14,110 nucleotides of DNA from Fibrobacter sp. (lineage in GTDB: Bacteria > Fibrobacterota > Fibrobacteria > Fibrobacterales > Fibrobacteraceae): contig JAFWRL010000286.1 of NCBI GenBank assembly GCA_017520105.1, positions 1 through 14,110 of the forward strand. The letters run 5' to 3'. A program made the position numbers and the translations under genes. A model generated the notes under the pieces. That model ran no database searches. It was given only the letters and a program-made list of their open reading frames with translations, and was not told the origin of the DNA. Below, piece after piece: positions 1 to 14,110 of the stretch. Every line of letters begins with the position of its first letter. Within the stretch, counting starts at the first letter, position 1.

Positions 1-627
1 CAAGCTCTCAAGCGCTATTATAAAGAAGGTTTTAATTTGTCTGTCGATGCGACTATTACTTTTGGCGATAGTGGCCGAGTGGTAAATGTTGATATGAATA
101 CGGATCATCCGGAATACGCCGATTTCTTGGAAGAAGTGAAATCTATTCTGTATTACGCATGGATGCCGCCAGAAGTGCGAACGCAGCTTGTTGTTCGTCA
201 AACGCATCCTATATTTACCGAATACCTTCCTCCTGAATTGCGTTCTCGGCGTATTTTTGGCAAGGTCGCTGCACAAGAAATTGTCAAGTCAGAAAAGGTT
301 CATCTCTCTTTTTCTAGAGAATATTTCCAAGAATGTCATGGCGAAGGGAGTGAAAAAGATTCCGTTGAAGTTATCGGCTATTTTGACGTCATCAAAGAAC
401 ATTGTGATGAAATCCGATTTACGAAGGACTTTGCTACGGGTGGAATTAATTATTTGCGATGCGTAAAAGGGGTGACAAAAAGAGATCCGCTGTTCCCTAA
501 AAAGCCTGTTAAACCAGCAAAATCATTTGAACTGTTTGATAGATATCATGCTATGTACGTCAAAGAAGACTTATCTTTAAATCAAGTCGTGACTCTCAAA
601 ATCCCGGCTTGCTTTGTGGAAGAATAG
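1..627 (+). CDS. 3' end of an unrecognised protein gene (5' truncated by the window edge)
   Basis: The reading frame is open from base 1 to a TAG at 625-627, so this is the last 208 codons of a longer gene. A TTG at 37 could start a 196-residue protein, but the in-frame codons before it also look coding and there is no ribosome binding site there, so a partial gene is preferred. The first ~45 residues, with a pattern like 'VDATITFGDSGRVVNVDM', loosely resemble the strand-rich C-terminal domain of TonB/AgmX-type proteins ('V.F....G.V..V.V'). That similarity is too weak to name a function. The rest has no motif I recognise, and no membrane segment is visible. It ends one base before the next gene's ATG, so the two are probably co-transcribed. 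Confidence 0.7.
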   Translation, partial: QALKRYYKEGFNLSVDATITFGDSGRVVNVDMNTDHPEYADFLEEVKSILYYAWMPPEVRTQLVVRQTHPIFTEYLPPELRSRRIFGKVAAQEIVKSEKVHLSFSREYFQECHGEGSEKDSVEVIGYFDVIKEHCDEIRFTKDFATGGINYLRCVKGVTKRDPLFPKKPVKPAKSFELFDRYHAMYVKEDLSLNQVVTLKIPACFVEE

Positions 628-628
628 T

Positions 629-1615
629 ATGATAAAACGAATAATTATATTTTCTTTGTTTGTGATTTTTATAGCATGTTTTTTGTTCTTCTTCAAGTTG
701 GAGAATATTTCATTTTGCCTTAATTTTGATAATTGCAAAATTGAAGGATTGTCTGCGTCTTATGAATCGTTACGTGATTCTTTAGAAGAGTACTCCATAA
801 AATGTGGAAAGAATGATTTTGAAAATGAAATCTTATATGATGGAGCTCGTGCCTATTGTCTATCGGATTCGTTGTTTTTGAAATATAAGTATGATAAAGT
901 TTGGAATGTAAAATATGATGGAAACGGAAAAATTTCTTTGAAACGTGGTGCCTTAAAAAATGGCTATTCGTTTAATGTAAATAAATTGTTTGACTTGATA
1001 TATGTTGTAGAAAAAAGCGAATATGCTTTTGAAATAAAAGATAAAGAAGTTAAAGAATTAAAGAATCCTTTTGAACCTCTAGAAATGCAGGTGTACGCGG
1101 ATTCCATGAATTCTGATGGCGACATGTTTGAAGTATTGATTCCAAAATCGTATTCTGTTCGTAAGAGCGGTATTATTATGGGTGAAATTGTTTGTTATAC
1201 TTTTTTAGATTCCTTGCTAAAACCTTTTATGCATTTGACTCTAGGGGTTGGGAATTCTGAAGATAATCCTTTGGGTCGAGCAGCTAACCAAGATATTCTT
1301 GATTCGTTTATTTTGCTAGAGCCTGTTTACAGAAGCTATTTTGATAATGATACCCTGAAAATCAGAAAGATTTCAAATGTGTTTGACATTTATTTTTCAT
1401 CTCGTTATATTAAAGAGCCCAAACGAAAGAGTTTTTCTTATAAAAATCCTGAAACAAAACGATATGAACATAAATATCAAAATACTGGTGATTCAATAAT
1501 ATGGTATGAGATGGATCGTTTGCATTTTGAATACGATTCCACGAAAGTTGATTCATCAATGTGCAAGAAGATAATTTCAACATTGCGGTATCGAAAACCC
1601 CAAAAAACAGAATAG
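629..1615 (+). CDS. Unknown protein with an N-terminal membrane anchor
   Basis: The protein has 328 residues from the ATG at 629. An upstream TTG at 614 is in frame but would overlap the preceding gene; the ATG has a GGAAGA at 617-622 as a plausible ribosome binding site. Residues 3-21 are almost purely hydrophobic (IKRIIIFSLFVIFIACFLFF), giving one membrane anchor with the remaining ~300 residues probably periplasmic. The Cys in 'FIAC' is not a convincing lipobox because Phe sits at -3 and hydrophobic residues continue after it. The rest is rich in Lys, Asp, Tyr and Ser with no recognised domain. The gene is clearly more AT-rich than the GH5 gene downstream and follows the preceding gene by one base, so they form an operon ended by the terminator at 1624-1648. 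Function unknown. Confidence 0.7.
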   Translation: MIKRIIIFSLFVIFIACFLFFFKLENISFCLNFDNCKIEGLSASYESLRDSLEEYSIKCGKNDFENEILYDGARAYCLSDSLFLKYKYDKVWNVKYDGNGKISLKRGALKNGYSFNVNKLFDLIYVVEKSEYAFEIKDKEVKELKNPFEPLEMQVYADSMNSDGDMFEVLIPKSYSVRKSGIIMGEIVCYTFLDSLLKPFMHLTLGVGNSEDNPLGRAANQDILDSFILLEPVYRSYFDNDTLKIRKISNVFDIYFSSRYIKEPKRKSFSYKNPETKRYEHKYQNTGDSIIWYEMDRLHFEYDSTKVDSSMCKKIISTLRYRKPQKTE

Positions 1616-1623
1616 AAACTTCT

Positions 1624-1648
1624 CGTTTGACAATTCGTCAACGTTTTT
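1624..1648 (+). terminator. Intrinsic terminator after the unknown gene pair
   Basis: CGTTTGAC (1624-1631) pairs with GTCAACG (1637-1643) across a 5-nt loop, with one bulged T, followed by five T (1644-1648). It starts 8 bp after the stop codon at 1615. Confidence 0.6.
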
Positions 1649-1660
1649 ATTGGCGTAATT

Positions 1661-1691
1661 TTTGCGATTGCCGTGTATTGATATATATTTA
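1661..1691 (+). promoter_or_regulatory. Candidate promoter of the GH5 gene
   Basis: TTTG at 1661-1664 is followed, 19 nt later, by TATATTTA at 1684-1691. This resembles the Bacteroidetes-type -33 TTTG / -7 TAnnTTTG promoter, with the last base of the -7 box differing. It would give a leader of roughly 60 nt ending in the AAGGA ribosome binding site at 1749-1753, 5 nt before the ATG. Inferred from pattern only. Confidence 0.45.
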
Positions 1692-1758
1692 AATTCGGTG
1701 TTATGGGCTTTCGTTGTTTGGGGAATAAACGCGAATGGCTTAGAACCAAAGGATTGAT

Positions 1759-3189
1759 ATGTTTAAACAGCACATTCGCGTCGCCGCGCTTTGCGGTGCG
1801 CTTTCTTTGACATTGGGCTCAAATTCTTTTGCGGCAGATTTGCCGACGGCGAACGAAATGTTTGCCAAGATGGGCTTTGGCATAAATATCGGGAACACGA
1901 TGGAAGTTCCCCAAAATCCGACGTGGTGGGGCAACAAGTTCCCGACCGAGGCGTACATTGATTCTGTCAAGGCGGCGGGCTTCAGCACGATTCGCATCCC
2001 GTGCGCGTGGTACAGCCATTCAAACGCATTGTCTCGTGATTCCAGCAGGGCTGATATTGTTCCGGGCGGTGGCCCGAACGAAATTGCTTCTAGTTGGATG
2101 GACTCTGTGCAGACGGTCGTGGACATGTGCATGCGCGCAGGCCTCGTGACGATTCTAAACATCCATTGGGATAACGGCTGGCTTGAAGGTAACTTGAACG
2201 ACAAGGAAAAGGACAAGGTGAATGCCCGCCAGAAGGATTTCTGGACGCAAATCGCGACGCATTTTAAGGACTATAATGAAAATTTGCTTTTCGCAAGTGC
2301 AAACGAGCCTGCCACAACTGACGCAAATTACAAGCACGAAACTGAAATCCTGATGACGTATCATCAGACGTTCGTGGATGCCGTGCGTGCGACGGGTGGT
2401 AATAACGCAAGCCGTACGCTCGTGATTCAGGGGCCATCGACAAGCATTGACCGCAGCTCCGAAGTGATGCCGGTAAGCAAGCTCCCGAAGGACGTGATTG
2501 CAAACCGCCTGATGGTCGAAGTGCATTTTTATGACCCCTACACTTACACGCTCATGAACGATATTGCGGATTGGGGCGCTCAAGTCTATCCGCAGTACTA
2601 CTGGGGCGACGACCTTGCGACAGGTGCGGATATCGTGCATAACTGCGGCTACAACGCTTGGGCAGGTGCCATGGGCGACAAGTGCACGAGCTCCCAGATT
2701 CAGGACCAGTTCGGCAAGATGAAAACGAACTTTGTCGATAAGGGTGTGCCTGTGATTATCGGCGAGTTCGGTGCGAATGACCGCGTGGGGGTGTTGACCG
2801 GCGACAATTATGCGAAACACCGCAAGGGCCGCCTCGCTTATTACGATGCCGTGATGAAACTTGCAAAACAAAACAAGGTGGTGCCTATCGCTTGGGATAC
2901 GGGTCACGAAGGCGAAAACAACATGACTATTATCCGTCGCCAGACAGAACCGGACGGTTCCGTGTTTGACAAGGACGTCCTGAACATCATGCGTCATGCG
3001 TACGGCCTTGACGATTATGTGAACAACGGCATAACGCATGTGGAAAACTTCAAGACCGATGACGGAAAGACTGGAATTGGGGTGATGCGTCCACGTCCGG
3101 TGCAGTCCCGCAGTTTGCGCGGTTCCCGCACTTATGACCTGCTCGGCAAGCAGAACCCGCAGGCAAGAGTCGTGAAAGTCAAGAAATAG
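1759..3189 (+). CDS. Secreted GH5 endoglucanase (cellulase) with basic C-terminal tail
   Basis: This is a glycoside hydrolase family 5 enzyme, probably cleaving beta-1,4-glucan (cellulose or a related hemicellulose) by a retaining mechanism outside the cell. The 476-residue product starts at an ATG preceded by AAGGA. Residues 1-25 form a signal peptide, with likely cleavage after SFA(25). The GH5 barrel covers about 33-420: GFGINIGNT (39-47), the IRIP strand (78-81), NIHWD (134-138), the acid/base Glu183 in ANEP, His256 and Tyr258 in VHFY, nucleophile Glu336 in IIGEFG, and Trp379 in AWDTG. All expected catalytic residues are present. After the barrel comes a short linker and an Arg/Lys-rich tail (about 443-476) containing YDLLGK. 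Fibrobacter secreted hydrolases often end in such basic tails, and the YDLLG pattern recalls T9SS C-terminal signals. No carbohydrate-binding module is visible. The gene is monocistronic. Subfamily and exact substrate (cellulose, lichenan, xyloglucan or mannan) cannot be fixed by eye. Confidence 0.93.
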   Translation: MFKQHIRVAALCGALSLTLGSNSFAADLPTANEMFAKMGFGINIGNTMEVPQNPTWWGNKFPTEAYIDSVKAAGFSTIRIPCAWYSHSNALSRDSSRADIVPGGGPNEIASSWMDSVQTVVDMCMRAGLVTILNIHWDNGWLEGNLNDKEKDKVNARQKDFWTQIATHFKDYNENLLFASANEPATTDANYKHETEILMTYHQTFVDAVRATGGNNASRTLVIQGPSTSIDRSSEVMPVSKLPKDVIANRLMVEVHFYDPYTYTLMNDIADWGAQVYPQYYWGDDLATGADIVHNCGYNAWAGAMGDKCTSSQIQDQFGKMKTNFVDKGVPVIIGEFGANDRVGVLTGDNYAKHRKGRLAYYDAVMKLAKQNKVVPIAWDTGHEGENNMTIIRRQTEPDGSVFDKDVLNIMRHAYGLDDYVNNGITHVENFKTDDGKTGIGVMRPRPVQSRSLRGSRTYDLLGKQNPQARVVKVKK

Positions 3190-3219
3190 GTTTTAGGTTA
3201 CAGGTCTTAGGTTTTAGGT
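3189..3219 (+). repeat. Short direct repeats GGTYTTAGGT (three copies)
   Basis: GGTTTTAGGT occurs at 3189-3198 and 3210-3219, with a variant GGTCTTAGGT at 3203-3212. The array begins on the last base of the GH5 stop codon and precedes the terminator hairpin. It looks like slippage-type intergenic sequence with no obvious coding role. Confidence 0.5.
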
Positions 3220-3232
3220 ACAAAAAGCAAAG

Positions 3233-3257
3233 AGTCTCGACGTTTGTCGGGACTTTT
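3233..3257 (+). terminator. Intrinsic terminator of the GH5 gene
   Basis: AGTCTCGAC (3233-3241) pairs with GTCGGGACT (3246-3254) around a GTTT loop, giving nine pairs with one G-U wobble, and ends in TTTT. It lies 44 bp after the GH5 stop codon. Confidence 0.7.
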
Positions 3258-3267
3258 CAAAATTTAC

Positions 3268-3300
3268 TGGATCCTTCGTCGCTTCGCGTCTCAGGATGAC
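3268..3300. repeat. REP-like intergenic palindromic element
   Basis: The element runs from TGGATCCTTCG to CAGGATGAC. The outer arms ATCCT (3271-3275) and AGGAT (3293-3297) pair, and a GCTTCGC-containing core lies between them. The layout (CCTGAG, then CGAAGCG, then CGAAGG on the minus strand) is shared with the element at 7763-7810. It sits in the gap between the convergent GH5 and OMP genes. A repeat family is inferred from the shared layout and from my general recollection of similar CTTCG/CTGAG palindromes in other genomes. Confidence 0.5.
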
Positions 3301-3358
3301 TTGCTCGAGGGTGACAGACTCTCCGCCAGTTTCCAGCTACCCACTTCTTACTACCTAC

Positions 3359-3373
3359 TGCGGCTCTGCCGCA
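3359..3373 (-). terminator. GC-rich hairpin just past the OMP gene, weak terminator candidate
   Basis: TGCGGC and GCCGCA form a perfect 6-bp stem with a TCT loop, 4 bp after the stop codon of the minus-strand OMP gene. No T-run follows on the minus strand, so it may only stabilise the 3' end rather than terminate by itself. Confidence 0.35.
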
Positions 3374-3377
3374 ACCA

Positions 3378-4631
3378 CTAGAATCCTATACTCGCTTGCA
3401 CCATGTAGATTCTGTTTTCTTCTTGGCCTGTGTAGTAGCCGCGTTCTTCGCCCCAGGTGGCCGCTTCAAACGTGAAGAAACGGAGCACTTCGACGCCGAT
3501 ACCCGCAGTCGGATAACCGCCCCTGAAACCGGCGGCAAGGCGCAAAGCGATGAAGCGTACTTCGTTGTTGAGGCCTGGAATTGCCGCAAGAGTCTGTTCC
3601 AGTTCAAAACCGAAGTTGAGGTGGCTGAAGAACTTGTAATTTCTGTCTGCATTGAACATGTCGGCGAAATCTACAGCGACATTGAATTTACGACCGAATC
3701 CGGTATTGCTGTTCATGAATTTCGGGCTATAGTTCGCGCCTATCGTGAAGTTCGGAATCAGTGTTTCTCCGGCTAGAGACTTGAAGTAAATGTCGCGAAG
3801 CGAAGCGCCAAAACGGACTTCGCGGTTGTACTGATAAAGAACGCCCATGTCCAAACCGAACGAGAACGTCTTGGAATCGAAGAAATCGTCAGTGGCGTTA
3901 TCGAGCTTGTTTTCGAGCGTATCGACAACACTCTTGTAGTTTGCCAACCCGAGCGTTACCATTTCGGTCTTGTGGCGCTTTGCGATTTTTCCGCCAAGGC
4001 CTACAGAAAGTTTGTTTGGGATGATTTCATAAGCGCCACCCGCTTGGGCGACTGCATCGATGTAGAACGTATCGACAACGAGGTAGGGGAGGATTAAGCC
4101 TCCTTCAACATAAGGAGCTACGCTTCCGTTCATCCAGAAAGCAGCACCAAAATTGTGGAACGCCAATTCGGCATCGAACTTCAATCTCATTTCCAATGTC
4201 TTGTGGTCATGAGAGTTGATAATATTGAGGTATCTGGGATTGTTGACAAGCGAATCTAGAATGGCACTCGTCCTGCTGGAGTTCGATTCATCTGCCGCAT
4301 TTTGCGCATTCCTAAACAAGTCCTGGACGTCAGTTACGTCGCCGTATGCCGAAAGGAATCTGCTGAATTCACCGGCTCCGCCAAATGTGAGTCGCATGTC
4401 GCCAATCCAGTTGCGCGGATAGTAGCCCTGTTCCGGACGCTTGTCGTAGTTGCCGAGTCTATTGATTTGGCTTAAACCGGCGTAGTTGAAATGAATGGCG
4501 TCTTTGTCATCGACTACTGCGACGTGGGCCCCACCCATGGATTCTGCACGGAGCGAAATGTGTCTGGGAGACTTTGCCGATGCAAAGCTTACACATAAAA
4601 TGAGAATTGCAAGTAAAGTTATTTTATTCAT
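3378..4631 (-). CDS. Outer-membrane beta-barrel protein, PorV/FadL-like
   Basis: The product has 417 residues and is an exported, probably outer-membrane protein. Residues 1-19 form a signal peptide (MNKITLL...SFASA). The mature N-terminus reads SLRAESMGGAHVAVVDD, then AIHFNYAGL, a pattern typical of PorV/UPF0164/FadL-like barrels in which an early loop precedes many amphipathic strands. The rest alternates hydrophobic and polar residues (for example FSFGLDMGVLYQY, FNVAVDFADMF, HLNFGFELE) and the chain ends in Phe (QASIGF), as is usual for barrel proteins. A ribosome binding site GGGAG lies 9 nt before the ATG, inside the upstream lipoprotein gene, whose stop codon overlaps this start as ATGA. 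Stoichiometric co-expression with that lipoprotein is therefore likely. Whether it is a channel, a secretion accessory protein (PorV-like) or a surface protein is not decidable here. Confidence 0.7.
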   Translation of the reverse strand: MNKITLLAILILCVSFASAKSPRHISLRAESMGGAHVAVVDDKDAIHFNYAGLSQINRLGNYDKRPEQGYYPRNWIGDMRLTFGGAGEFSRFLSAYGDVTDVQDLFRNAQNAADESNSSRTSAILDSLVNNPRYLNIINSHDHKTLEMRLKFDAELAFHNFGAAFWMNGSVAPYVEGGLILPYLVVDTFYIDAVAQAGGAYEIIPNKLSVGLGGKIAKRHKTEMVTLGLANYKSVVDTLENKLDNATDDFFDSKTFSFGLDMGVLYQYNREVRFGASLRDIYFKSLAGETLIPNFTIGANYSPKFMNSNTGFGRKFNVAVDFADMFNADRNYKFFSHLNFGFELEQTLAAIPGLNNEVRFIALRLAAGFRGGYPTAGIGVEVLRFFTFEAATWGEERGYYTGQEENRIYMVQASIGF

Positions 4632-6004
4632 TTTGCATTTCTCCCTTCAAACCATTTCTTGAAATCATCATCGGAGTAGTTGACCCAACATCCGCCGACC
4701 ATTTCTTTGCGCTTTTTCAGCGGATACTTAATGTTATTTATATCCGTATCGTGACGGATAAGTTCCTTGTTCTTGATTTTGGTTGCAAGGTTTTTCCCGG
4801 GGTATTTCAGGTCAACGGCAAACCTGAGTAAGTGGTTGTTCTGTTCGTCACGTTCATCGGGATCGCGAATGACATATTGCCATTCATCCGGGTCCTGGGT
4901 CCCCATTTTCTCATTCATGTCGATATCGATGGTTTCGTATTTTTCAATAGTATTGAGGTGATCAACCTGTGATTTGGTCAGGTCGTAAACTTTTCCATCC
5001 TTGTTGACTTGTGTGGTATTGTTTTCGTCTTTTGTTATGAAGGTGTTTTTAACAAGGACAACTGAACGGTAGTCTCTGCCGTCTTCGTCTATTTCGCCAT
5101 CTCCGTCGTTGTCGTAGTTATCCACGACTTCTTCGTCAACGCATCCGTCGCCGTCATCGTCCATGCCGTTTCCGAACACGAAGAACACGTCGGTCCGTTC
5201 TTCTTCAACTGTCTGGGCTCTGTCGTTTAATTGGATGACTGTGTTGGCTAGTCCAACCGTTGCGTCCGTGTAGAAATCGTCGCCGATGTCCTGTCGCGTG
5301 GAGTCGGGAAGGTAGGCTTTGATGATTTCTGCAGAGGCGTCCGGCGCTACTTTAATCGCTTCGGATGCTGCCGCCATGTCCTTGAGGAATGGCTTGAGAC
5401 TATCGCCAAGGTCGTTCAGGGTGTTTAAGTTCAACTTCATGCCTGCGCTATCAGCAGAGAGGACGGATGTGAGTTCTGTCTGGACGTTTCGGATGCGGAG
5501 CGCGGCTTTGGTGAGTAACAAGATGGCGTAACTGTCGGCGATATCGCTGAACCGTACTTTCTTGTCTGTCTTTCCGGTCGTGTCACGAACGATAAATTGG
5601 TTCAGGTAAATCAGGACAGAATCAATCCCTTTTGAAATCAAGTGGGCTTCATGGTCCTGCATCTCGAGGAATCCGTTGGATGTCGATTTGTCGTCGGCCT
5701 TTTGAGCGTAGGAGACCAGCTCGAATGCATTGAGCCCTTCTTGGCTGTTAAGGACGCACTTGGAGAGACCGACCCATGCTTCGGAATATCCGGAATCCGC
5801 GGCAATAGCTCTGCTAAAAAGCCTACGGGCGGAGTCGTAGTTCGACTTCTGGAACTCGTGGTATCCATCTAGCGTCAGAGCGGCCGCATCGTCATTTTCG
5901 GCGTCATGGCTTTCTGTTGGGTGAAACAGGTTGCAACCGGCAATGCCGACAGACAAAGCGGTTACGAGAGGCCATATCCTTTTGCTTTGTGATATTTTAC
6001 TCAT
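4628..6004 (-). CDS. Lipoprotein with TPR-like repeat and acidic calcium-loop-like repeats
   Basis: This is a 458-residue exported lipoprotein. The signal peptide ends in the lipobox IAGC, so Cys24 is the predicted lipidated residue (Lgt is encoded at 10161-11027). Residues about 43-83 form a TPR-like helical pair (GYHEFQKSNYDSARRLFSRA, then SGYSEAWVGLSK). The middle, to about 260, looks helical. Residues about 279-307 carry DDDGDGCVDEE and then DNDGDGEIDEDG, two DxDxDG loops like those of thrombospondin type 3 or EF-hand-type calcium sites. The C-terminal ~150 residues are Asp/Lys-rich and unassigned. The ATG follows AGGA at 8 nt spacing. The stop overlaps the start of the OMP gene by 4 nt. 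The pairing suggests a periplasmic-face lipoprotein partner of the barrel, perhaps an assembly or scaffold factor; this is inference. No enzyme motif is seen. Confidence 0.75.
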   Translation of the reverse strand: MSKISQSKRIWPLVTALSVGIAGCNLFHPTESHDAENDDAAALTLDGYHEFQKSNYDSARRLFSRAIAADSGYSEAWVGLSKCVLNSQEGLNAFELVSYAQKADDKSTSNGFLEMQDHEAHLISKGIDSVLIYLNQFIVRDTTGKTDKKVRFSDIADSYAILLLTKAALRIRNVQTELTSVLSADSAGMKLNLNTLNDLGDSLKPFLKDMAAASEAIKVAPDASAEIIKAYLPDSTRQDIGDDFYTDATVGLANTVIQLNDRAQTVEEERTDVFFVFGNGMDDDGDGCVDEEVVDNYDNDGDGEIDEDGRDYRSVVLVKNTFITKDENNTTQVNKDGKVYDLTKSQVDHLNTIEKYETIDIDMNEKMGTQDPDEWQYVIRDPDERDEQNNHLLRFAVDLKYPGKNLATKIKNKELIRHDTDINNIKYPLKKRKEMVGGCWVNYSDDDFKKWFEGRNAK

Positions 6005-6136
6005 TTTGCTAATCCTGAAACGATTTCTCCGCTTAAAAAAATAATCTCATTATTAAAAATAATGCATTTTTTCCTACACGAAATGCTTATTTTACCTTTT
6101 TTGGCGGACTTTTTTTACGATTTTCTCTTAAAAAAA

Positions 6137-6144
6137 TATATTTG
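6137..6144 (+). promoter_or_regulatory. TATATTTG box 6 nt before the YkgJ-type gene start
   Basis: An exact TAnnTTTG match ends 6 nt before the ATG at 6151. A -7 box so placed would start transcription at or next to the ATG, giving a leaderless mRNA. No Shine-Dalgarno is present upstream of the ATG, and no clear -33 TTTG was found. Confidence 0.45.
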
Positions 6145-6150
6145 CGCTCG

Positions 6151-6906
6151 ATGGAAGCGTACAAAGAGTATTTTCCGACGAAATCTTATCGCATTGCTGA
6201 GATGCGACTTTCCTCCCTGCTCAGGGTCGAAAGGGATCGTCTTGATGGGATTGCCGCTGCCTTGGGGCGTGAATATGCCATCGCTCCAGACAACTTGCGG
6301 GAACAGTTGCCGCAGATCCTCCAGTTTACGCAGTCGTACCATGAGGCTTATGACCAGTATTTGAAGGCTGTGCTCGTACAGCAGCCGCGCCCTATCCAAT
6401 GCAGGCCTGCTTGCGGAAACTGTTGTCATCATTATCCGATGTCGGTCGAACCGTTCGAATTGATTTTCTTGTATAATGAGCTACGGAAACGGGATGACTT
6501 GCTTACTTTGATGGAAGCTTGCCAGCTGCGTTCGGACAAGTTTGAATCTTTTTTTGATGCCCGCCGCGAAACTGGACTTTCTGAGGACGATGCCGAAGAT
6601 CGGGCGCTCCATGACTATTTTTCGTGGTGGCGTCCATGTCCTTTTTCGAACGAGTCGGGCGATTGTACCGTTTATCCGCTACGGACCGTTTCTTGCCGTA
6701 TGTATTTTAGCGAGACCGAACCGCAATATTGCACGCCGGATATGCTTCAGACCGAAAAGAACGATAGCTATATAGTTTATATGCCGGATGTCGTGGAAGA
6801 TGCCGTGTATGGAATTTCGGAACATTATTCGGCGCTCGACTTGCCTGAAAGCTTTTTTGGCGGGTTGTTGGCGTTGAATGGCTATGAAGGAGTCTTGGGC
6901 GCGTGA
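6151..6906 (+). CDS. YkgJ-family cysteine-cluster protein (probable metal or Fe-S binding)
   Basis: The product has 251 residues from the ATG at 6151. A TTG at 6142 is in frame but overlaps the proposed promoter box, so the ATG is preferred. After a helical N-terminal ~75 residues, it carries the YkgJ/UPF0153-type signature C84-x3-C88-x2-C91-C92, followed by C163, C172, C182 and C194 in the CPFS..GDCTVYP..TVSCR pattern of this family. These eight cysteines probably bind zinc or an Fe-S cluster. The family's biochemical function is not firmly known. No signal peptide or membrane segment is seen, so the protein is likely cytosolic. The stop codon overlaps the GTG start of the next gene (GTGA), so the two are translationally coupled. 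Confidence is high on the family, low on the role. Confidence 0.8.
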   Translation: MEAYKEYFPTKSYRIAEMRLSSLLRVERDRLDGIAAALGREYAIAPDNLREQLPQILQFTQSYHEAYDQYLKAVLVQQPRPIQCRPACGNCCHHYPMSVEPFELIFLYNELRKRDDLLTLMEACQLRSDKFESFFDARRETGLSEDDAEDRALHDYFSWWRPCPFSNESGDCTVYPLRTVSCRMYFSETEPQYCTPDMLQTEKNDSYIVYMPDVVEDAVYGISEHYSALDLPESFFGGLLALNGYEGVLGA

Positions 6907-7727
6907 ATCCGTTTGAAAAAATCGGTGTCCCTGCGATGGCTCCTGACGGACAGATGGATTTGTTCGGGTATGTCGCTGCGGACAACGGGCCTGAAGTCGA
7001 GGTCCCTTCGCCAGATTGCTCTCTTAATGGACTTGTGCATTTCAAGTATAGTCCGCTCATGAAGAAGAGCATCCGTTGCAAGGGTGGGGTCCTGTTCGGG
7101 CATCCGGAAGTACTTCTGCCTGCGTACATGAAGGCTCCGGAATTTGCCGATGCCCGTGAACTGGCCGCAGAATGGGCGGAACATGCGGTGCGTCGCAAAA
7201 CGCAGAAAAACAAGGCTATTATCAAGGACTTGGTAAATCGCTTTTGGCAGACCGTCGATCAGGTCTTTACTGACAAAGGACAAGCTCCGCTTGCAAGCAA
7301 GGGGCGCTTGCCGCCGATTCGTCCGCAGGGTGTTCACCATAACCTGACGGATGTGCTTGCCGCCATCAACAACACCTATTTTGATGGTTCACTTACATGC
7401 AGAATTACCTGGAGTAACCGCGTGGGAGGCCTCAGTTTCCACTCCGTGCGCAAGGACCCGGTGACAGGTGAGAACTTCCACCTCATCAGTATTAGCCGCG
7501 GTTACGATGCGGCGAACTGTCCTTTGTATGCAATCGCGGGTGTTGTTTATCATGAATGCCTGCATGTCGTGATTCCTGTCGAGGAGCGCCAGGGGCGCAG
7601 GGTCGTTCACGGTCGAGAATTTCGCCAACGCGAAAAACGCTACATCTATTATGATGAATGGATCAAGTGGCACAAGGAAGTGCTGCCGCGAAACATTCGC
7701 GCCATGCGGCACCATAAAGCTCTTTAG
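6903..7727 (+). CDS. SprT-like zinc metalloprotein (HExxH)
   Basis: The product has 274 residues starting at GTG 6903, supported by AAGGAG at 6887-6892 and by the GTGA overlap with the preceding stop. The C-terminal half has SprT/Spartan-like features: a helix followed by LAAINNTYFDGSL, ITWSNR, a strand region LISISRGYD, then the zinc-binding HECLH at 217-221 (Glu218 would be the catalytic base), with a third histidine His236 in HGREF. SprT-like proteins are zinc-dependent peptidases of the M48/SprT group; some act on DNA-protein crosslinks. The N-terminal ~115 residues are unassigned and contain no cysteine cluster of a zinc ribbon. Being coupled to the cysteine-cluster gene suggests the two proteins act together, but no partner or substrate can be read from the sequence. 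Confidence 0.72.
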   Translation: MNPFEKIGVPAMAPDGQMDLFGYVAADNGPEVEVPSPDCSLNGLVHFKYSPLMKKSIRCKGGVLFGHPEVLLPAYMKAPEFADARELAAEWAEHAVRRKTQKNKAIIKDLVNRFWQTVDQVFTDKGQAPLASKGRLPPIRPQGVHHNLTDVLAAINNTYFDGSLTCRITWSNRVGGLSFHSVRKDPVTGENFHLISISRGYDAANCPLYAIAGVVYHECLHVVIPVEERQGRRVVHGREFRQREKRYIYYDEWIKWHKEVLPRNIRAMRHHKAL

Positions 7728-7734
7728 AACTTTG

Positions 7735-7754
7735 GTTCGGCAAGTTTACCGAAC
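7735..7754. terminator. Weak hairpin between convergent genes
   Basis: GTTCGG (7735-7740) pairs with CCGAAC (7749-7754) over an 8-nt loop, 7 bp after the SprT-like stop. No long T-run follows (TTATC), so termination is only possible, not established. Confidence 0.3.
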
Positions 7755-7762
7755 TTATCAAG

Positions 7763-7810
7763 GTCCCTGAGCTGGTATGCTGAGCCTGCCGAAGCGCTGT
7801 CGAAGGGCCC
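7763..7810. repeat. REP-like intergenic element
   Basis: The element runs from GTCCCTGAGC to GTCGAAGGGCCC. It contains the modules CCTGAG, GCTGAGCCTGCCGAAGCG and TCGAAGG, an order and layout similar to the element at 3268-3300 read on the minus strand. The outer ends GTCCCT and AGGGCCC can pair. It lies between the SprT-like gene and the converging UPF0340 gene, outside any coding frame. Confidence 0.5.
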
Positions 7811-7811
7811 A

Positions 7812-8411
7812 CTAGAACTGCGGGTATCCGTCTTTTAGACTTTCGTCATAATGAGCTCGCTCACCACCGATGAATTTCGGGCGGGTGCGTGCAGCGATGA
7901 GGATCGCCTTGCCGATGTGGTTCTGCTTTAAGCGCACGGGAACAGCGACTTCGCGTAAGTGCATGCCGATAAGTGTCCCGCCGATATCTAGCCCCGCATT
8001 AGCCTTGATATGTTCGAGTGCCACGGGAGATTTGAAGGCCGCGTAACAGGCTGTTGCGAAGGAGCCGCCGGCTTTGGGTTGCGGTACGACGTTTACGATT
8101 TCTGCGTTCGGGACGGCTTCATGTTCGATAATAATGGCGCGATTCAGGTGCTCGCAGCATTGGGCGGCGATGTAGATGCCTTGTGCATTGAAAATGCTCT
8201 GGAGCCCTTCGTAGATGGCTTTCCCGACTTCGGGAACGGAATGGCTACCGACCTGGTTGCCCAGGGTTTCGCTGGTACTACAGCCGACAACTACAATATC
8301 GCCTTTTTTCAGATGCGCCGCTTCGACAAGTTCCGCAGCGGCTTTGGCAGCGTCCGACTTGATTTGCTCGACAATGTTCTTGTCGTCAACTTCGTAAGTA
8401 ATGCCTGCCAT
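7812..8411 (-). CDS. UPF0340 / TIGR01440 (YwlG-like) protein
   Basis: The product has 199 residues from the ATG at 8411. An upstream in-frame ATG (8438) would add nine residues, but AGGAG sits at 8419-8423, 7 nt before the 8411 start, and the sequence from MAGITYEV onward matches the family's usual N-terminus. Family features include the conserved GCSTSE near residues 43-48, a SHSVPEVG segment, the QCCEHLNRA region, and the GGTLIGMH and RTRPKFIGG stretches. The function of this conserved family is not established as far as I know. It is cytosolic, with no signal peptide or membrane helix. It diverges from the DAC-like gene and converges on the SprT-like gene, with no clear operon partner. Confidence 0.85.
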   Translation of the reverse strand: MAGITYEVDDKNIVEQIKSDAAKAAAELVEAAHLKKGDIVVVGCSTSETLGNQVGSHSVPEVGKAIYEGLQSIFNAQGIYIAAQCCEHLNRAIIIEHEAVPNAEIVNVVPQPKAGGSFATACYAAFKSPVALEHIKANAGLDIGGTLIGMHLREVAVPVRLKQNHIGKAILIAARTRPKFIGGERAHYDESLKDGYPQF

Positions 8412-8438
8412 TGATATGCTCCTGTTAATGTTCTTCAT

Positions 8439-8446
8439 AAAAGATA
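8439..8446 (-). promoter_or_regulatory. Candidate -7/-10 box for the UPF0340 gene
   Basis: Read on the minus strand, TATCTTTT matches seven of the eight positions of TAnnTTTG. It would give a short leader containing the AGGAG at 8423-8419 before the ATG at 8411. No upstream -33 element at good spacing was found. Confidence 0.3.
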
Positions 8447-8539
8447 ATTTTTTGAAAAAAATAAAATTTGTTTTCCAAAAATAGTGAGTTCATATTATAT
8501 TCATAACAGATAACTTAGGTTTTTGCTTTTGGTTGTTTT

Positions 8540-8544
8540 AGGAG
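8540..8544 (+). promoter_or_regulatory. Shine-Dalgarno that fixes a TTG start
   Basis: AGGAG lies 7 nt before TTG 8552. The next in-frame ATG (codon 27, 8630) has no comparable site, so the TTG start is preferred. Confidence 0.6.
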
Positions 8545-8551
8545 CGAAAAT

Positions 8552-10174
8552 TTGCAAAATACTACACATGTTATAGGGCTTGATCGAAAGAAAATAAAAG
8601 GTTTCTTTCTGCGAAAACTTCCTGAAATGAAGGAAGCGGTTATTGATGCCATTATCGAAATTTTGCCAAGTGTACCGCATTATCAAGAAGAAAGTGACCA
8701 TTTTACGTTCCGAATCATCATGGGGAACGGAAATACGCCGATGGGCTGGAATCGTCGCATATACAAGTTTTCGGGAGAATCGCTGGAAAATTTGTACAAA
8801 GAACGGGTGAAGGCGTGCTTGAAGGACGTCATCCATTTTTGCAGGAACGGGTGCGACTTGATTATCCAGCAGATGTCTGGACGCGAAAAGTCTGAGTCGT
8901 CTATCCTGGTCGGTGTGTTCCAGTCGGATATCGGAAATGCCGGCGAGACCGAACGCGCTCTCCTCGAAAAAGGTTTTTTGTTGATAGACTGCGTCAACGT
9001 TTCGAAAATCTGCATAAATTCGCATACGCCCGATGGCGGCAACGACCATTTGCTGATTCGTTTTGATTTGGATGAAAACGGTTTTGCGGATGACTTGACG
9101 GAAACTAATTTGGGCTCGTACCCGAAAGGGTTTTGGGCTGGTCTTTTTTCACAAGTCAAAAAAGAAGTTCACGGTACAATCTGTTTGTTTGTGGATCCGT
9201 CATGGAATGGGAATAAAGACGAAAATTTTGACGAAGGAAAGATAGTCTTTGATGATTACAGGGACATGCAGATAAAGCCTGATTCCATGTTGGATTCGCA
9301 GTCGTATCATGACTTGTACGAGCAGAATTTTATCCGTAAAATGTTTATCTCGATGTTGAACTACGATGGCATTACGGTTATCGACACGAATGGCTGCGTT
9401 CGGGCTTTTCACTGTTTTGTAGCCATTCATCGGGGCAAGTTTACATCAGGTGGCGCAAGGCACCGCGCATACAGGGCTCTTGCTCATCTTTTTAAGGATA
9501 ACGGTTGTTATAAAGCAATTTATTTACAGTCGCAAGAGGGAAATATCAGGTTCTATTACAATTCACGCGTTTCGTCGTCCTTTGATTCTACAGTGATGGA
9601 CGGTTGTTACGGAATAAATGAGGCGGAAAAAGCAAACAAAAAGGCGACCGCACAAGTTGTAGATGCCGCATTGGAATTGTCGGAGTCCTTAAGCCGCCTA
9701 CGTGAAGCCCATTTGGGTATAGACAACTTCTACAACGAGCCAAAGCCTGCCGAAGACTTGTATAAATCGGTTCTTGAAATGACTGACGAATCTTGGGGGC
9801 AGGTGGATGCCGAACGGGCTATCAATGTCCCTATCATTAGTTTGATAGGCAATTCGTATGGCTACTCGACAAATGCGGAACCGTTCCTCAAAAATTTTCT
9901 TGAAAAGATTCCGAATTCGGTCTGGGCTGTTTACCTGAATAACAAGGGTTTTGAAGACTCTTCGCTCTTGTCAACGCTGGGTAGCAAGAATCAAGAAGGT
10001 CAATGGTCCAAACTGATGAACGAGACAGGAACGGAAGATGCTAACGCCGAAAAGTACGTCACAGACGAACTGGCAGAACACATCAAAATTGTTTATGAAC
10101 ACGTGAGTCGGTTGTTTTTCCAAAAGTTCGAAGAAGAACACAAACTCTGGGAAAATTTCCTCAAAGGGTATTAG
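8552..10174 (+). CDS. Protein with a divergent DisA_N/DAC (diadenylate cyclase-like) domain
   Basis: The product has 540 residues starting at TTG 8552 after AGGAG. Residues about 262-340 match the pattern of diadenylate cyclase domains, which make c-di-AMP from two ATP. NYDGITVID has the metal-binding Asp272 of the DGA motif, with Ile274 instead of Ala. GGARHRAYRAL (300-310) has the RHR motif of GTRHRAA, with Ala302 instead of Thr. LQSQEGNIRFY (325-335) matches the SxExGxIxxY strand. The spacing from Asp272 to Arg303 (31) is close to that of DisA-type enzymes. This assignment rests on motifs, not on a search. The N-terminal ~255 and C-terminal ~195 residues are unassigned. There is no HhH DNA-binding region as in DisA, no transmembrane helices as in CdaA and no signal peptide, so the protein is probably cytosolic. 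Its 3' end overlaps lgt by 14 bp in convergent orientation. If active it would be a c-di-AMP or related-nucleotide synthase; a non-catalytic nucleotide-binding role is the alternative. Confidence 0.65.
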   Translation: MQNTTHVIGLDRKKIKGFFLRKLPEMKEAVIDAIIEILPSVPHYQEESDHFTFRIIMGNGNTPMGWNRRIYKFSGESLENLYKERVKACLKDVIHFCRNGCDLIIQQMSGREKSESSILVGVFQSDIGNAGETERALLEKGFLLIDCVNVSKICINSHTPDGGNDHLLIRFDLDENGFADDLTETNLGSYPKGFWAGLFSQVKKEVHGTICLFVDPSWNGNKDENFDEGKIVFDDYRDMQIKPDSMLDSQSYHDLYEQNFIRKMFISMLNYDGITVIDTNGCVRAFHCFVAIHRGKFTSGGARHRAYRALAHLFKDNGCYKAIYLQSQEGNIRFYYNSRVSSSFDSTVMDGCYGINEAEKANKKATAQVVDAALELSESLSRLREAHLGIDNFYNEPKPAEDLYKSVLEMTDESWGQVDAERAINVPIISLIGNSYGYSTNAEPFLKNFLEKIPNSVWAVYLNNKGFEDSSLLSTLGSKNQEGQWSKLMNETGTEDANAEKYVTDELAEHIKIVYEHVSRLFFQKFEEEHKLWENFLKGY

Positions 10175-11027
10175 CTTTCTTCTCTTTATAGAATAAATAC
10201 ACCATCCAGGCGAAGCCGATGATAAACATCAGCGAACAGAGCGTCTGTCCGCGGCTCATGCCAAAGAGGTCGATACGGCCGAGGTGAGCGTCCGGTTTGC
10301 GGAAAAATTCGATGAAAAAGCGGAAAAGCCCATATCCCATCAAGTAAAGGCATGGAATCTTGTCGTGGAGTTTCGGAATCTTGCGAAGGTTGTACAGAAC
10401 GACAAACAGGATGACGCCTTCGAACAACATTTCGTAAAGCTGGCTTGGGTGGTGGAGGATTGGATTTGCAAGAGTGCTGTCGTGGGCCAGCGGAAAATAC
10501 ATGCCGATAGAACTCGTTGTCACTTCGCCGAAAAGTTCACCGTTGATGAAGTTGCCGTAACGGCCCCAGGTGTAGGCGAGCGGAGCGGCGAGCATGGCCA
10601 GGTTTAGAGTTTTCCAGACGTCGAGCTTGTTGCGTTTTGCTCCGATGCAGAAAAAGATGATGCCCAAAATGAGACCGCCGTGGTAAGACATCCCGGAAAT
10701 TCCGACAAAGTGGTAGCCGAGATCGTCGTGAACCATGGGAAGTAAAATTTCGGTCGGATTCGAGAGGTAGTAACTTGCCTTGTAAAAGAATACGTATCCG
10801 AGGCGGGCGCCAAGCAAGATACCGGCGATAATCCAAGTGAATATGTTGTCGAGCTGTTCCTTGGTGTACCCTAGTTTTTCTTTTTCGCTGATTTTCCACA
10901 TGGTGAGGTAGGCGGTCACGAACGCAAAAATGTACATGATTCCGTACCAGCGCACGGGGAAGCTTCCGAGTTCAAAAGCCGTTCCGTCAAAATAAGTCGG
11001 TATTAAGTTCCACCAAGATAATTCCAT
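10161..11027 (-). CDS. lgt: Prolipoprotein diacylglyceryl transferase Lgt
   Basis: Lgt transfers diacylglycerol from phosphatidylglycerol to the lipobox cysteine of prolipoproteins in the inner membrane, the first step of lipoprotein maturation. The 288-residue length is normal. Several hydrophobic segments are visible (for example about 25-43, 60-80 and 114-131). Signature residues are present: MSYHGG with His116, and GRYGNFINGE (155-164) with Arg156, the Lgt signature with its essential arginine. HPSQLYE and the C-terminal YGLFRFFIEFFR region also fit. It is the last gene of the orn-PBP-lgt cluster, 33 bp after the PBP stop, with a weak AAAGGA about 12 nt before the ATG. Its TGA lies inside the end of the convergent DAC-like gene. 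A likely substrate in this window is the lipoprotein at 4628-6004. Confidence 0.95.
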   Translation of the reverse strand: MELSWWNLIPTYFDGTAFELGSFPVRWYGIMYIFAFVTAYLTMWKISEKEKLGYTKEQLDNIFTWIIAGILLGARLGYVFFYKASYYLSNPTEILLPMVHDDLGYHFVGISGMSYHGGLILGIIFFCIGAKRNKLDVWKTLNLAMLAAPLAYTWGRYGNFINGELFGEVTTSSIGMYFPLAHDSTLANPILHHPSQLYEMLFEGVILFVVLYNLRKIPKLHDKIPCLYLMGYGLFRFFIEFFRKPDAHLGRIDLFGMSRGQTLCSLMFIIGFAWMVYLFYKEKKANTL

Positions 11028-11060
11028 TTTGATTCTTTTTCCTTTGTGTTTAAATCTAAC

Positions 11061-12398
11061 TTAATTTTTGAGATTTTGGTGCGCCCAGTAATTAATGATG
11101 GTCGCTGCTACTTGCGTTGCCGGTTGTGAGCGGAATTCTTTGTGCATCTGCATCACGATGACGACGATGGATTTGCCCGGTTCGTTCCTTGCTTCGGCAA
11201 ATCCCATGAACCAGTCGTAACGGCCTGCGGGGTCGTTTCCGTCGAGTGAACCGGTCTTGCCTCCGAGCCGTAGGACGTCGAAGTTCTTGCGGGCCATGTT
11301 CCTTGTGGACATGTGCTTGTGTGCGGTACCCTGCGTGACGGAACGTAACATTGCTTCGCGGAGACCGTAATACGTGTTTTCGCTGAATTTGCCGACGTCA
11401 AGTGCGATGGGCTTTTGCGGGGCGAACGGAGCCATGTCGCGGGCCCACGGGATTTCGAGGGGCTTCTTGGTGAGGACTGCTCGTACTTGCGCCGCGGCGA
11501 GGAGCGGTGTCAGTGTTGTCGAAGTTGTAAAACCGCAGGCGACTTCGGCAAGGCCGTAACCTGTGTCCGGGGTGGTATAGCTGGATGCGTTCGGGGCGTT
11601 TCCGGGGAATTTCCTGTTGTAGCCGAGTTTGGCGGCGGCGGCGAGCAAGCGCTTTGCGCCGACGTTTTTCCCGACGATGGCCATGGGCGGGTTCGCGGAG
11701 CGGGCGAATGCTTCGGCAAGTTCCATCGTTGGACCTTTGTATTTTTCGGGGACGCGAAGCTGGTTCAGGTAAAGCGTGTGGTGGCGCCCGATCATCGGGA
11801 TGGGCGTGTTGAGCGAGTAGCGGTTGCTTTCCATGGCGGCAGCGATGGTCACGAGCTTTGCTAGTGATGCGGCTGGGAAGGTGGAACGTCCTATATAGTC
11901 AGGCCTATTCTGCACATGCTCGTCTCGACGTTCGCCCCAAGCTATGATTTCGTTTGTCTTGGTATCGACGACAAGGATGATGCCCAAGTCCGGGTGATAA
12001 CGGCGCAGGAGTATGTCGATTTTTTCGGCTAGGAACGGGTCTTTTTGCGACTTGATGTGGAGTGTGTCGCGGACGCCTGTGGCAACGCTGTTCTCGAAAC
12101 CTGTACTGGCCGATGTCTTGTCGAAATCTTCATCTTCGATTCCGGTAAGGCGTGAAAGTCCGTTTGGTGCCGTATTTGCGGTGTCGAAGGCCGTTGTATC
12201 GTAAAAAGCGTTCGTGTCGTTTGCCGCGATGGATTCGGATGAGGAATCTGTGGCTGGTGCGATGTTGCTTTCGACGACGTTACTTGCGGGCAAATCTTCC
12301 TTGGTGGAGCAATGGACTATGGCAACGATAATGAATACGAGAACGGTAATCGCGATGCAACGGTTACGCATTCTTTTGGCGTAAGGGAGTCTTTCCAT
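11061..12398 (-). CDS. Membrane-anchored penicillin-binding transpeptidase-domain protein
   Basis: The product has 445 residues with a single N-terminal membrane anchor (about 14-29), a low-complexity Ser/Thr/Asp-rich linker to about 110, and a penicillin-binding (serine acyl-transferase) domain to the end. All three active-site motifs are present: S178-L-A-K181, S234-A-N236, and K381-T-G383. It lacks the N-terminal PBP-dimer domain of FtsI/PbpA and the glycosyltransferase of class A PBPs, so it is a short transpeptidase- or carboxypeptidase-type enzyme acting on peptidoglycan in the periplasm. The sequence around the motifs (GKTGSLDGNDPAGRYDWFMG) is more like class B transpeptidases than DacA. 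The Cys30 region (IVHC) is not a lipobox. The start lies 4 bp after the orn stop, with no obvious ribosome binding site, consistent with operon expression. Confidence 0.85.
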   Translation of the reverse strand: MERLPYAKRMRNRCIAITVLVFIIVAIVHCSTKEDLPASNVVESNIAPATDSSSESIAANDTNAFYDTTAFDTANTAPNGLSRLTGIEDEDFDKTSASTGFENSVATGVRDTLHIKSQKDPFLAEKIDILLRRYHPDLGIILVVDTKTNEIIAWGERRDEHVQNRPDYIGRSTFPAASLAKLVTIAAAMESNRYSLNTPIPMIGRHHTLYLNQLRVPEKYKGPTMELAEAFARSANPPMAIVGKNVGAKRLLAAAAKLGYNRKFPGNAPNASSYTTPDTGYGLAEVACGFTTSTTLTPLLAAAQVRAVLTKKPLEIPWARDMAPFAPQKPIALDVGKFSENTYYGLREAMLRSVTQGTAHKHMSTRNMARKNFDVLRLGGKTGSLDGNDPAGRYDWFMGFAEARNEPGKSIVVIVMQMHKEFRSQPATQVAATIINYWAHQNLKN

Positions 12399-12402
12399 GG
12401 GG

Positions 12403-12942
12403 TTACTTGAAAATGGTTCTTCTGTAATAGGCGAGTTCGGCGATGCTTTCGCGGATGTCGTTTAGCGCTTCGTGCCTTTTTTCCTTTTGAAAATCTTCAA
12501 TGTTCGGGTACCAGCGGTAAAACAGTTCCTTGATGGAACTCACGTCGATATTTCTGTAGCACAGCCATTCTGAAATATCGGGCATGTACTTGTACAAAAA
12601 GCGACGATCCTGCGTGATGGAATTTCCGCAAAGGACATTTTTTGTCTTTTCCGTAAAGGGCTTGATAAAACGCAATGTTTCTTGTTCCGCGTCTTTGAGC
12701 GAGTATTGCGAGCGACGGCACCTATCGACGAGACCGCTCTGGTTGTGGTGTTTCGTGTTCCATTCGTCCATGCTTTCGAAAACGTTTTCGGGTTGGCGGA
12801 TGGCGATGACAGGACCTTCGGCGAGAATGTTCAGGTTAAGATCGGTAACAATGGTCGCTATTTCTAAAATGACGTCTTTTTCGGGATCGAGACCGGACAT
12901 TTCCAGGTCCATCCAGACTAAATTTCGGGAACTTTTTGGCAT
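12403..12942 (-). CDS. orn: Oligoribonuclease (DEDDh 3'-5' exonuclease)
   Basis: Orn degrades short oligoribonucleotides (nanoRNA, including pGpG) to mononucleotides. The 179-residue product has all five DEDDh residues at family positions: Asp12 and Glu14 in WMDLEMSGL, Asp112 in SITQDRRF, and His157 and Asp162 in RHEALNDIRES. Length and sequence (PKSSRNLVWMDLE start, KRHEALNDIRESIAEL end) fit canonical Orn. It is the first gene of a minus-strand cluster with the PBP and lgt. The ATG has no Shine-Dalgarno, and a TATTATTC box lies 7 nt upstream, suggesting a leaderless start. An ATG further upstream is not supported. Confidence 0.95.
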   Translation of the reverse strand: MPKSSRNLVWMDLEMSGLDPEKDVILEIATIVTDLNLNILAEGPVIAIRQPENVFESMDEWNTKHHNQSGLVDRCRRSQYSLKDAEQETLRFIKPFTEKTKNVLCGNSITQDRRFLYKYMPDISEWLCYRNIDVSSIKELFYRWYPNIEDFQKEKRHEALNDIRESIAELAYYRRTIFK

Positions 12943-12949
12943 ACGGGGT

Positions 12950-12957
12950 GAATAATA
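12950..12957 (-). promoter_or_regulatory. TATTATTC box 7 nt before orn
   Basis: On the minus strand, GCTATTATTC precedes the orn ATG at nearly the same distance as GCTATATTTG precedes fabF. It deviates from TAnnTTTG, so it is a weaker candidate. No Shine-Dalgarno lies between it and the ATG. Confidence 0.35.
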
Positions 12958-13021
12958 GCTTTTTAGAGATTAGATGGTTGAGCTTTGTTGGTAGAACTTG
13001 GTCAGTTGAATTACAAAAAAA

Positions 13022-13036
13022 ATGGAAATTTTCCAT
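13022..13036. repeat. 15-bp palindrome in the orn-fabF divergent region
   Basis: ATGGAAA and TTTCCAT flank a central T, a perfect inverted repeat with 7-bp arms. It lies between the divergent orn and fabF promoters in an AT-rich region with a second TATATTTC box at 13068-13075. It could be an operator for either gene, or chance in AT-rich DNA. The rest of the 220-bp region shows only poly-A/T runs. Confidence 0.35.
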
Positions 13037-13147
13037 ATATATAGATAAATTTGTTAAAAATTATAAATATATTTCGCATATTATACTTTTTTGTTACAAA
13101 TTGTCTTTTTCTTTCCCCACTTACGAAAATATTACATTTTTTTTTGC

Positions 13148-13155
13148 TATATTTG
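13148..13155 (+). promoter_or_regulatory. fabF: TATATTTG box 7 nt before fabF
   Basis: An exact TAnnTTTG match lies at 13148-13155, followed by seven bases and the ATG at 13163. No Shine-Dalgarno fits between them. The expected transcription start would fall at or beside the ATG, implying a leaderless mRNA. Confidence 0.45.
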
Positions 13156-13162
13156 CCGCACT

Positions 13163-14110
13163 ATGGAAAATGTTGTTATTACAGGTATGGGCTGCGTTTC
13201 CTCTTTAGGAAATACCCCCGAATTATTGTGGCAGAACTTGCTTCAAGGCAAGTCTGGCATCGCTACCATCCAGCGTTTCGACGCTTCGGCCTACACATCC
13301 CGCATTGCGAGTGAAATTCGCGAGTTTGACGCTACGGGCATCTACAGTACGAGAGACCAGTCCAGGTTCTCGCGCTGCATCCAGTACGCTGTATATTCGT
13401 CGTTGCAGGCTTTGCGTCAGGCAGGCATCGCTCCGGAAAACGAAAATCCCGAACGTTGCGGCGCTATCATCGGTAGCAGTATCGGTGGTCTTCTGCACTG
13501 CTATGAAGCTGCAGTGGCTCTCTGCACTCGTGGTCCGTCCCGCGTTTCCCCGTTCTATATTCCGATGGCTATCGTGAATATGCCGGCAGGTGAAGTCTGC
13601 AACAAGATTGGCTGGATGGGTCCGTCTTATACGGTGACTTCCGCTTGTGCGACCTCGAACCACTCCATCGCGAACGCTTACGACATGATTCGTCTTGGCC
13701 GTTGCGACGTGATGCTTGCCGGTGGTGCCGACGAAACGGTGAACCCGCTCAGCCTCGCTGGTTTTACCAGCATGAAGGCCGTCAGTAAGCGCAACGATTC
13801 CCCGGAAACCGCTTCCCGTCCGTTCGACAAGGACCGCGACGGTTTTGTTATCGGTGAAGGTGCCGCAGTTCTCGTTCTCGAAAGCGAATCCCATGCCAAG
13901 GCCCGTGGTGCAAAGATTCTTGCCCGTATCGCCGGTGTCGGTGCAAGCTCCGACGCTTATCACATTTCCGCTCCGCGTCCGGACGGCAAGGGCGTGATGC
14001 TCGCAATGAGCAACGCCATGAAAGAAGCTGGCATCGAACCCAAGGATATTAGCTATATTAATACCCACGGAACCTCGACACCGCTCGGTGACATTGCGGA
14101 ATGCTCTGCC
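13163..14110 (+). CDS. fabF: 3-oxoacyl-ACP synthase II (KAS II), 3' end beyond the window
   Basis: This is a condensing enzyme of type II fatty acid synthesis that elongates acyl-ACP with malonyl-ACP. The first 316 codons are present and the frame is still open at the right edge. The N-terminus VVITGMGCVSSLGN is typical of FabF. Active-site Cys162 sits in SACATSNHS, and the first catalytic histidine His302 sits in NTHGTSTPLGD. The second histidine, which would lie near residue 340, is outside the window. Other KAS landmarks are IIGSSIGG, MLAGGADE and RPFDKDRDGFVIGEGAAVLVLE. The GITGMG-type start and GxD..R spacing favour FabF over FabB. No acpP or fabD is adjacent within the window. The start is an ATG with no Shine-Dalgarno but a TATATTTG box 7 nt upstream. 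Confidence 0.95.
   Translation, partial: MENVVITGMGCVSSLGNTPELLWQNLLQGKSGIATIQRFDASAYTSRIASEIREFDATGIYSTRDQSRFSRCIQYAVYSSLQALRQAGIAPENENPERCGAIIGSSIGGLLHCYEAAVALCTRGPSRVSPFYIPMAIVNMPAGEVCNKIGWMGPSYTVTSACATSNHSIANAYDMIRLGRCDVMLAGGADETVNPLSLAGFTSMKAVSKRNDSPETASRPFDKDRDGFVIGEGAAVLVLESESHAKARGAKILARIAGVGASSDAYHISAPRPDGKGVMLAMSNAMKEAGIEPKDISYINTHGTSTPLGDIAECSA

Follow-up and report, generated by a model that had tools for sequence, protein, structure and literature searches.

A divergent diadenylate cyclase-like protein with a fused partner region in Fibrobacter

Introduction

Does a hypothetical gene of Fibrobacter encode a synthase of nucleotide signals outside the established families? The gene in question occupies positions 8552..10174 (+ strand, stop codon included) of a DNA stretch from the rumen bacterium Fibrobacter sp. 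(GenBank GCA_017520105.1, contig JAFWRL010000286.1, positions 1-14,110, forward strand), and encodes a protein of 540 residues. This whole 14,110-nt stretch is referred to as the window, and the gene and its product as the window gene and window protein. An initial annotation, made from the sequence alone, placed a diadenylate cyclase (DAC)-like domain in the protein on the basis of three motifs. In the portion of a 2020 review available to us, synthesis of cyclic di-AMP (c-di-AMP) is assigned to a few DAC classes, namely DisA, CdaA and CdaS (PMC7288161). A deeply divergent DAC-like family that is missed by the Pfam cut-off and has its own partner protein would add to the known synthases of nucleotide signals.

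Results

We regard the window protein as a putative DAC-type enzyme that actively makes cyclic dinucleotides and has a helical partner, a reading that we hold with moderate confidence. Its central domain, at about residues 186-351 (9107..9604, as with all features of the gene on the + strand), has the predicted fold of the DAC alpha/beta core, with DisA as the top match in both Foldseek and VIA. The three motifs reported initially were confirmed on the sequence, at the residues assigned to them and in DAC order. A chance match was ruled out, as the pattern occurs in one of 200,000 shuffles and is accompanied by the DAC fold. A profile search bore out the expected link in part: DAC (PF02457) is the best Pfam match of the protein (17.2 bits, E 0.0038), but falls short of the curated cut-off of 27 bits, and the protein is consequently filed as DAC-like, outside PF02457. 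DAC is also the family most often matched by its relatives, with matches at E <= 1 for 20 of the 47 rows of alignment A1, which comprises the window protein and 46 of its 112 homologues at E <= 1e-3, picked for spread.

Conservation within A1 was read at four motif positions. The first was missed by the initial annotation and its placement is our own: H207-G-T-I210 (9170..9181) stands at the position of GALI, a DAC motif named in the part of PMC7288161 available to us. H, G and I are constant in all 47 rows and T in 46, and the Gly alone is common to HGTI and GALI, by position. The DGA position reads D272-G-I-T275 (9365..9376); D, G and T are kept in 47/47 rows, whereas the Ala is replaced by Ile in 43 and by Val in 4. 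At the GxRHRxA position, G301-A-R-H-R-A306 (9452..9469), RHR is present as R303-H304-R305, the preceding Thr is replaced by Ala, and the final Ala by Tyr307; G301 and R303 are constant (47/47), H304 is found in 38 rows and R305 in 35. The fourth motif, S327-Q-E-G330 (9530..9541; S, E and G in 47/47), lies at the (V/I)SEE position, which reads Q326-S327-Q328-E329 in the window. Here the Ser and the second Glu are retained throughout, the first Glu is Gln in 46/47 rows, and the residue before the Ser is also Gln in the window protein. In total, G208, D272, G273, R303, S327, E329 and G330 are invariant in A1. A second alignment, A2, contains 50 rows, mostly short forms of the protein and some of them shared with A1. 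G208, D272, G273, R303 and S327 are constant in all 50; Lys occupies position 304 in 39, and position 329 holds Glu in 34 rows and Asp in the other 16. Asp272 and Arg303, singled out initially, are thus unchanged in either alignment.

Canonical CdaA of Fibrobacter reads GMRHR in place of GTRHR (L082 and L086). As this CdaA also lacks the Thr, its absence from GARHR is not telling, and the initial proposal that the Thr-to-Ala change hints at altered chemistry is weakened. The nucleotide product may nevertheless be an altered one.

The regions flanking the DAC-like domain have no Pfam match to the partner domains of DisA, CdaA or CdaS, as the initial annotation had held, but the extents and nature it gave them required revision. 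The N-terminal flank, first put at ~255 residues, spans about 185 (8552..9106); it is predicted to be of alpha/beta secondary structure, and Y44, E46 and E47 are invariant in A1. No family was assigned to residues 1-185, a region barely covered by the fold searches. The C-terminal ~195 residues, first described as matching none of the classical partners, include a helical region at about residues 369-518 (9656..10105) that bears the signature AHLGIDNFYNEP and corresponds to a protein encoded separately in other bacteria. Of 94 related loci, 80 were kept, and 67 of these (L014-L080) come from clostridial genomes. Among these clostridial loci, some of them truncated at contig ends, 16 have a next gene downstream of ~425 residues that falls into one cluster; in 13 of the 16 there is a four-base overlap between it and the DAC-like gene. 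By hhalign, a profile built from the C-terminal region of the long forms aligns with these 16 downstream genes over 146 columns (probability 98.5, E 1.7e-15), corresponding to the C-terminal third of the partner, and with four partner genes of viral contigs and plasmids still better (probability 99.5, E 1.3e-22). Hidden Markov models (HMMs) agree in both directions: the partner HMM finds the window protein at E 2e-8, and the C-terminal HMM finds the partner on viral contig L130 at 4.6e-25. The partner HMM also matches plasmid partners of Vibrio (E 8.5e-63) and Agrobacterium (2e-52; database size set to 100,000), whose AHxGxDNFYNE signature is common to the AHLGIDNFYNEP of the window. Since its C-terminal region is homologous to a partner encoded separately elsewhere, the window gene is, by sequence comparison, a fusion of two parts, a two-gene module joined into one gene.

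The partner family appears broader than the module. The Vibrio partner gene has matches in 17 plasmid records, and partner-like genes were inspected in 6 of the 15 that are from neither Vibrio nor Agrobacterium (L136-L141, plasmids of Bacillus, Streptomyces, Rhodococcus and Acinetobacter). None of the six adjoins an annotated DAC, a result that refers to annotation and leaves hypothetical neighbours unscanned.

Members of the DAC-like family occur in Fibrobacterota, Bacillota and Pseudomonadota. A tree of 52 rows (L128 and L129 left out) is separated at its midpoint into mostly fused long forms and short forms, although the long group also holds the short proteins P0109 and P0111. The form from viral contig L130 and that of L021, from a genome with a canonical DAC, branch beside other clostridial short forms. 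The deep branching order is unsure due to long branches. That the resident forms arose from mobile ones is consistent with the tree, which falls short of demonstrating it.

Within Fibrobacter, the family was found near full length in 25 of 80 genomes and as fragments only in two more (27/80). Two levels of similarity are apparent: in 18 genomes a copy reaches E 5.5e-159 or lower, and eight copies range from 5e-138 to 2.2e-128 and include a second copy from genome G003. The gene is flanked by a DUF436 gene and an LGT gene, each present in 10 of 11 loci, and its neighbours in the window are housekeeping genes. A mobile island for the window copy was ruled out because this locus is fixed. Canonical CdaA is also present in all six Fibrobacter genomes tested, as is a canonical DAC in the Butyrivibrio genome discussed below.

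A different situation is seen among the clostridia. A canonical DAC scored over the cut-off in 2 of 50 genomes searched, out of the 67 clostridial genomes. We then considered the Christensenellales family of genome G022, a group of tiny gut bacteria, sampled as 147 genomes of ~1 Mb each; it includes Candidatus Onthoplasma faecipullorum (G011), whose genus is placed in Christensenellales by NCBI. A canonical DAC passed the cut-off in 1/147 genomes of this family, compared with 135/151 in a sample of the order. The short form is present in 54 of the 147 (in two as fragments only), and looks like one copy per genome. Weak matches in a further 16 genomes led to a second type, termed type II, of which 15 proteins were fetched (L099-L113, e.g. 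L103:1014-2354, minus strand). These proteins, of 444-457 residues (about 450), have a terminal DG...GGGR(L/K)AA...KIS-DG region and mostly carry GGGRLAA where RHR is expected. Two of the 15 match Pfam DAC at E <= 0.1, the better at 3.7e-5 and still below the cut-off, and the type II profile aligns with that of the first family (type I) across 45 columns of the DAC core (probability 91, E 1e-6). The type II profile matches 46/147 genomes of the family and the short form is absent from all 46, against an overlap of 17 expected if the two were independent (P 2e-12, not corrected for kinship). At the limits applied, neither type was found in 47/147 genomes, which are of unstated completeness; one of these, G214, has a canonical DAC. 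This family is a natural test of life without a canonical DAC, and of what its replacement produces.

Some relatives are carried on plasmids and viral contigs, and the closeness of some copies to defence genes offers a testable anti-phage role. The window protein may act as signal synthase in an anti-phage module of two components, in which the partner or helical region would sense infection, the DAC-like domain would produce a nucleotide signal, and a separate effector would kill or stall the cell. The window copy would be a fused chromosomal form, with this role kept or changed; such a function would refine rather than exclude the cyclase reading, and we give it slightly less than an even chance. 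The unit of DAC-like gene and partner is present on the IMG/VR viral contigs L128-L130 and on plasmids of Vibrio and Agrobacterium. On the plasmid of Vibrio sp. dhg (L134:888-3839), the pair is joined by a third, overlapping gene, whose 204-residue product has hydrophobic stretches and may be a membrane effector, and restriction-modification genes follow within 6 kb. On the Agrobacterium plasmid (L135:3674-8260), the pair adjoins genes for a nucleotidyltransferase and a patatin-like protein, a set that we take to be the make-up of an operon of the cyclic oligonucleotide-based antiphage signalling system (CBASS). In Butyrivibrio (L012), AriA-like and AriB-like (PARIS-like) genes are just upstream and a phage integrase is downstream. 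The second Fibrobacter copy (L013) has a DEAD helicase just upstream and an AbiLi-like ATPase ~3.5 kb downstream on the opposite strand.

Several observations count against this role. The window gene itself lies among housekeeping genes at a fixed locus, and matches none of the PADLOC 2023 families at E <= 10; for the copies L012 and L013, PADLOC likewise gave nothing at E <= 0.001. The gene is apparently one per genome in Christensenellales. A search of 50,697 phage records with three relatives, the window protein not being among the queries, was negative. The window protein matched no plasmid record, and the Vibrio protein none of the viral contigs. Furthermore, only a few copies with defence genes nearby came to light, all through similarity, and there is no background rate with which to compare them.

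A wider version of this scenario appears doubtful to us. A mobile defence-type module would have taken two paths, becoming a fused accessory cyclase at a fixed chromosomal locus in Fibrobacter, and elsewhere the sole DAC-like gene that can be recognised in many members of the Christensenellales family of ~1-Mb genomes, which lack a canonical DAC and most of the c-di-AMP partners tested; there it might serve a novel nucleotide messenger and be interchangeable with the equally divergent type II.

The window gene has a TTG start, and AGGAG (8540..8544, + strand), 7 bases ahead of it, is a likely ribosome-binding site. The relative L001 is 98% identical to the window protein in the best segment. 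The few relatives that carry a source name are labelled "hypothetical protein", in agreement with the initial view of a little-studied class. No match to the window protein was found in NCBIfam, and a literature search, with most subscription journals outside its reach, found no description of the family. A c-di-AMP hydrolase as neighbour was ruled out, as the 513-residue candidate is a PLD-domain (PLDc_2) protein. Elsewhere in the window, positions 1759-3189 encode a glycosyl hydrolase family 5 cellulase, as expected for Fibrobacter. Positions 3378-6004 (minus strand) hold two adjacent genes (417 and 458 residues) with no Pfam match at E <= 1e-5; the 458-residue product has DDGDG/NDGDG stretches and a lipoprotein-like start.

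Discussion

Overall, the initial observation of a DAC-like domain was confirmed and its interpretation was supported in part. The gene, its family, the predicted fold, the kept motifs, the fused and split arrangements with the partner and the distribution are established by the analysis; what follows on catalysis, product, dimer, regulation and trigger is what we infer. The window protein would be a soluble nucleotide cyclase of DAC fold, in which two DAC domains most likely meet face to face with one ATP each. The G208 motif may contact the base, D272 the ribose or metal, and R303-H304 and S327/E329 the phosphates, such that joining two ATP would give a cyclic dinucleotide, with c-di-AMP the likeliest product. 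Sensing or gating may fall to the N-terminal region, and the C-terminal helical region would act as a built-in version of the partner that is the next gene in other bacteria. In Fibrobacter, where CdaA is the housekeeping enzyme, the protein may add a second, regulated cyclase in an accessory role, probably turned on by stress such as phage infection.

Evidence at several levels weighs against an active, c-di-AMP-producing cyclase. Besides the sub-threshold Pfam score, searches of PDB sequences with the window protein and with the family profile found no DAC, which leaves DAC identity open on sequence alone. The hhalign link between A1 and a canonical DAC set is weak (probability 18, E 0.0013; probability 25 for A2 and 1.5 for alignment A3), in a comparison where that set is five sequences without the Fibrobacter CdaAs. 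The Thr of GTRHR is absent, and H304 and R305 vary among relatives. In the G022 family, DarA and the GdpP GGDEF domain were over the cut-off in 0/147 genomes, the ydaO riboswitch was found in 0/147 with strict filters, and TrkA_C passed in 24/147, all figures that have no order baseline. With established c-di-AMP partners scarce or missing, c-di-AMP as the product is unsupported in this family.

The motif changes could also mean that cyclisation has been lost, and that the domain is a sensor that binds ATP or a cyclic dinucleotide. Both DGA to DGI and GTRHR to GARHR fall within motifs, two residues of RHR are variable, and the six Fibrobacter genomes tested already have CdaA. We consider such a pseudo-enzyme unlikely, because the invariance of D272, R303, S327 and E329 in A1, and of the first three in A2 with Glu or Asp at 329 in 50/50 rows, exceeds the expected need of mere binding; in addition, the short form occurs in many genomes where a canonical DAC was not found. 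A resemblance in fold only, with other chemistry on a DAC-like core and no tie to cyclic dinucleotides, would fit the weak profile link and the PDB result but is highly improbable given four motif positions in order with key residues kept, and DAC as the leading Pfam match of both protein and relatives.

Comparison with known systems

The preferred reading, a DAC-type synthase with a helical partner, can be compared with four known systems. The window protein resembles DisA in its fold and in its DG, RHR and S-x-E motifs. However, DisA has its DAC domain at the N-terminus rather than in the middle, ends in a helix-hairpin-helix (HhH) domain where the window protein has a region homologous to the partner family (no HhH Pfam match at E <= 10), and is, by contrast, not sub-threshold for Pfam DAC. 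CdaA, DacA and CdaM begin with membrane helices, whereas the N-terminus of the window protein is predicted as mixed alpha/beta and has no Pfam match to CdaA_N, a result obtained without a dedicated membrane prediction; Fibrobacter also has its own canonical CdaA besides the DAC-like protein. DACN-type sensor domains are reportedly fused to DACs of conflict systems (Pfam DACNK, PF21753), the DACN names being said to come from work on such systems. These proteins likewise join a non-classical N-terminal partner to a DAC-like domain, but the window protein has no Pfam DACN match, and the sole trace is a DACNK match at E 0.12 in the type II protein L110. With CBASS and other nucleotide-signal defence, the family shares a candidate nucleotide synthase with a partner gene and the presence of some copies near defence genes; the CBASS synthase is a CD-NTase (cGAS/DncV-like nucleotidyltransferase), whereas the window protein has the DAC fold and no PADLOC match. 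We file the protein as a DAC-like cyclase that is divergent and has its partner fused to it, rather than as a demonstrated DisA, CdaA or CdaS, and predict that it most likely works like a DAC.
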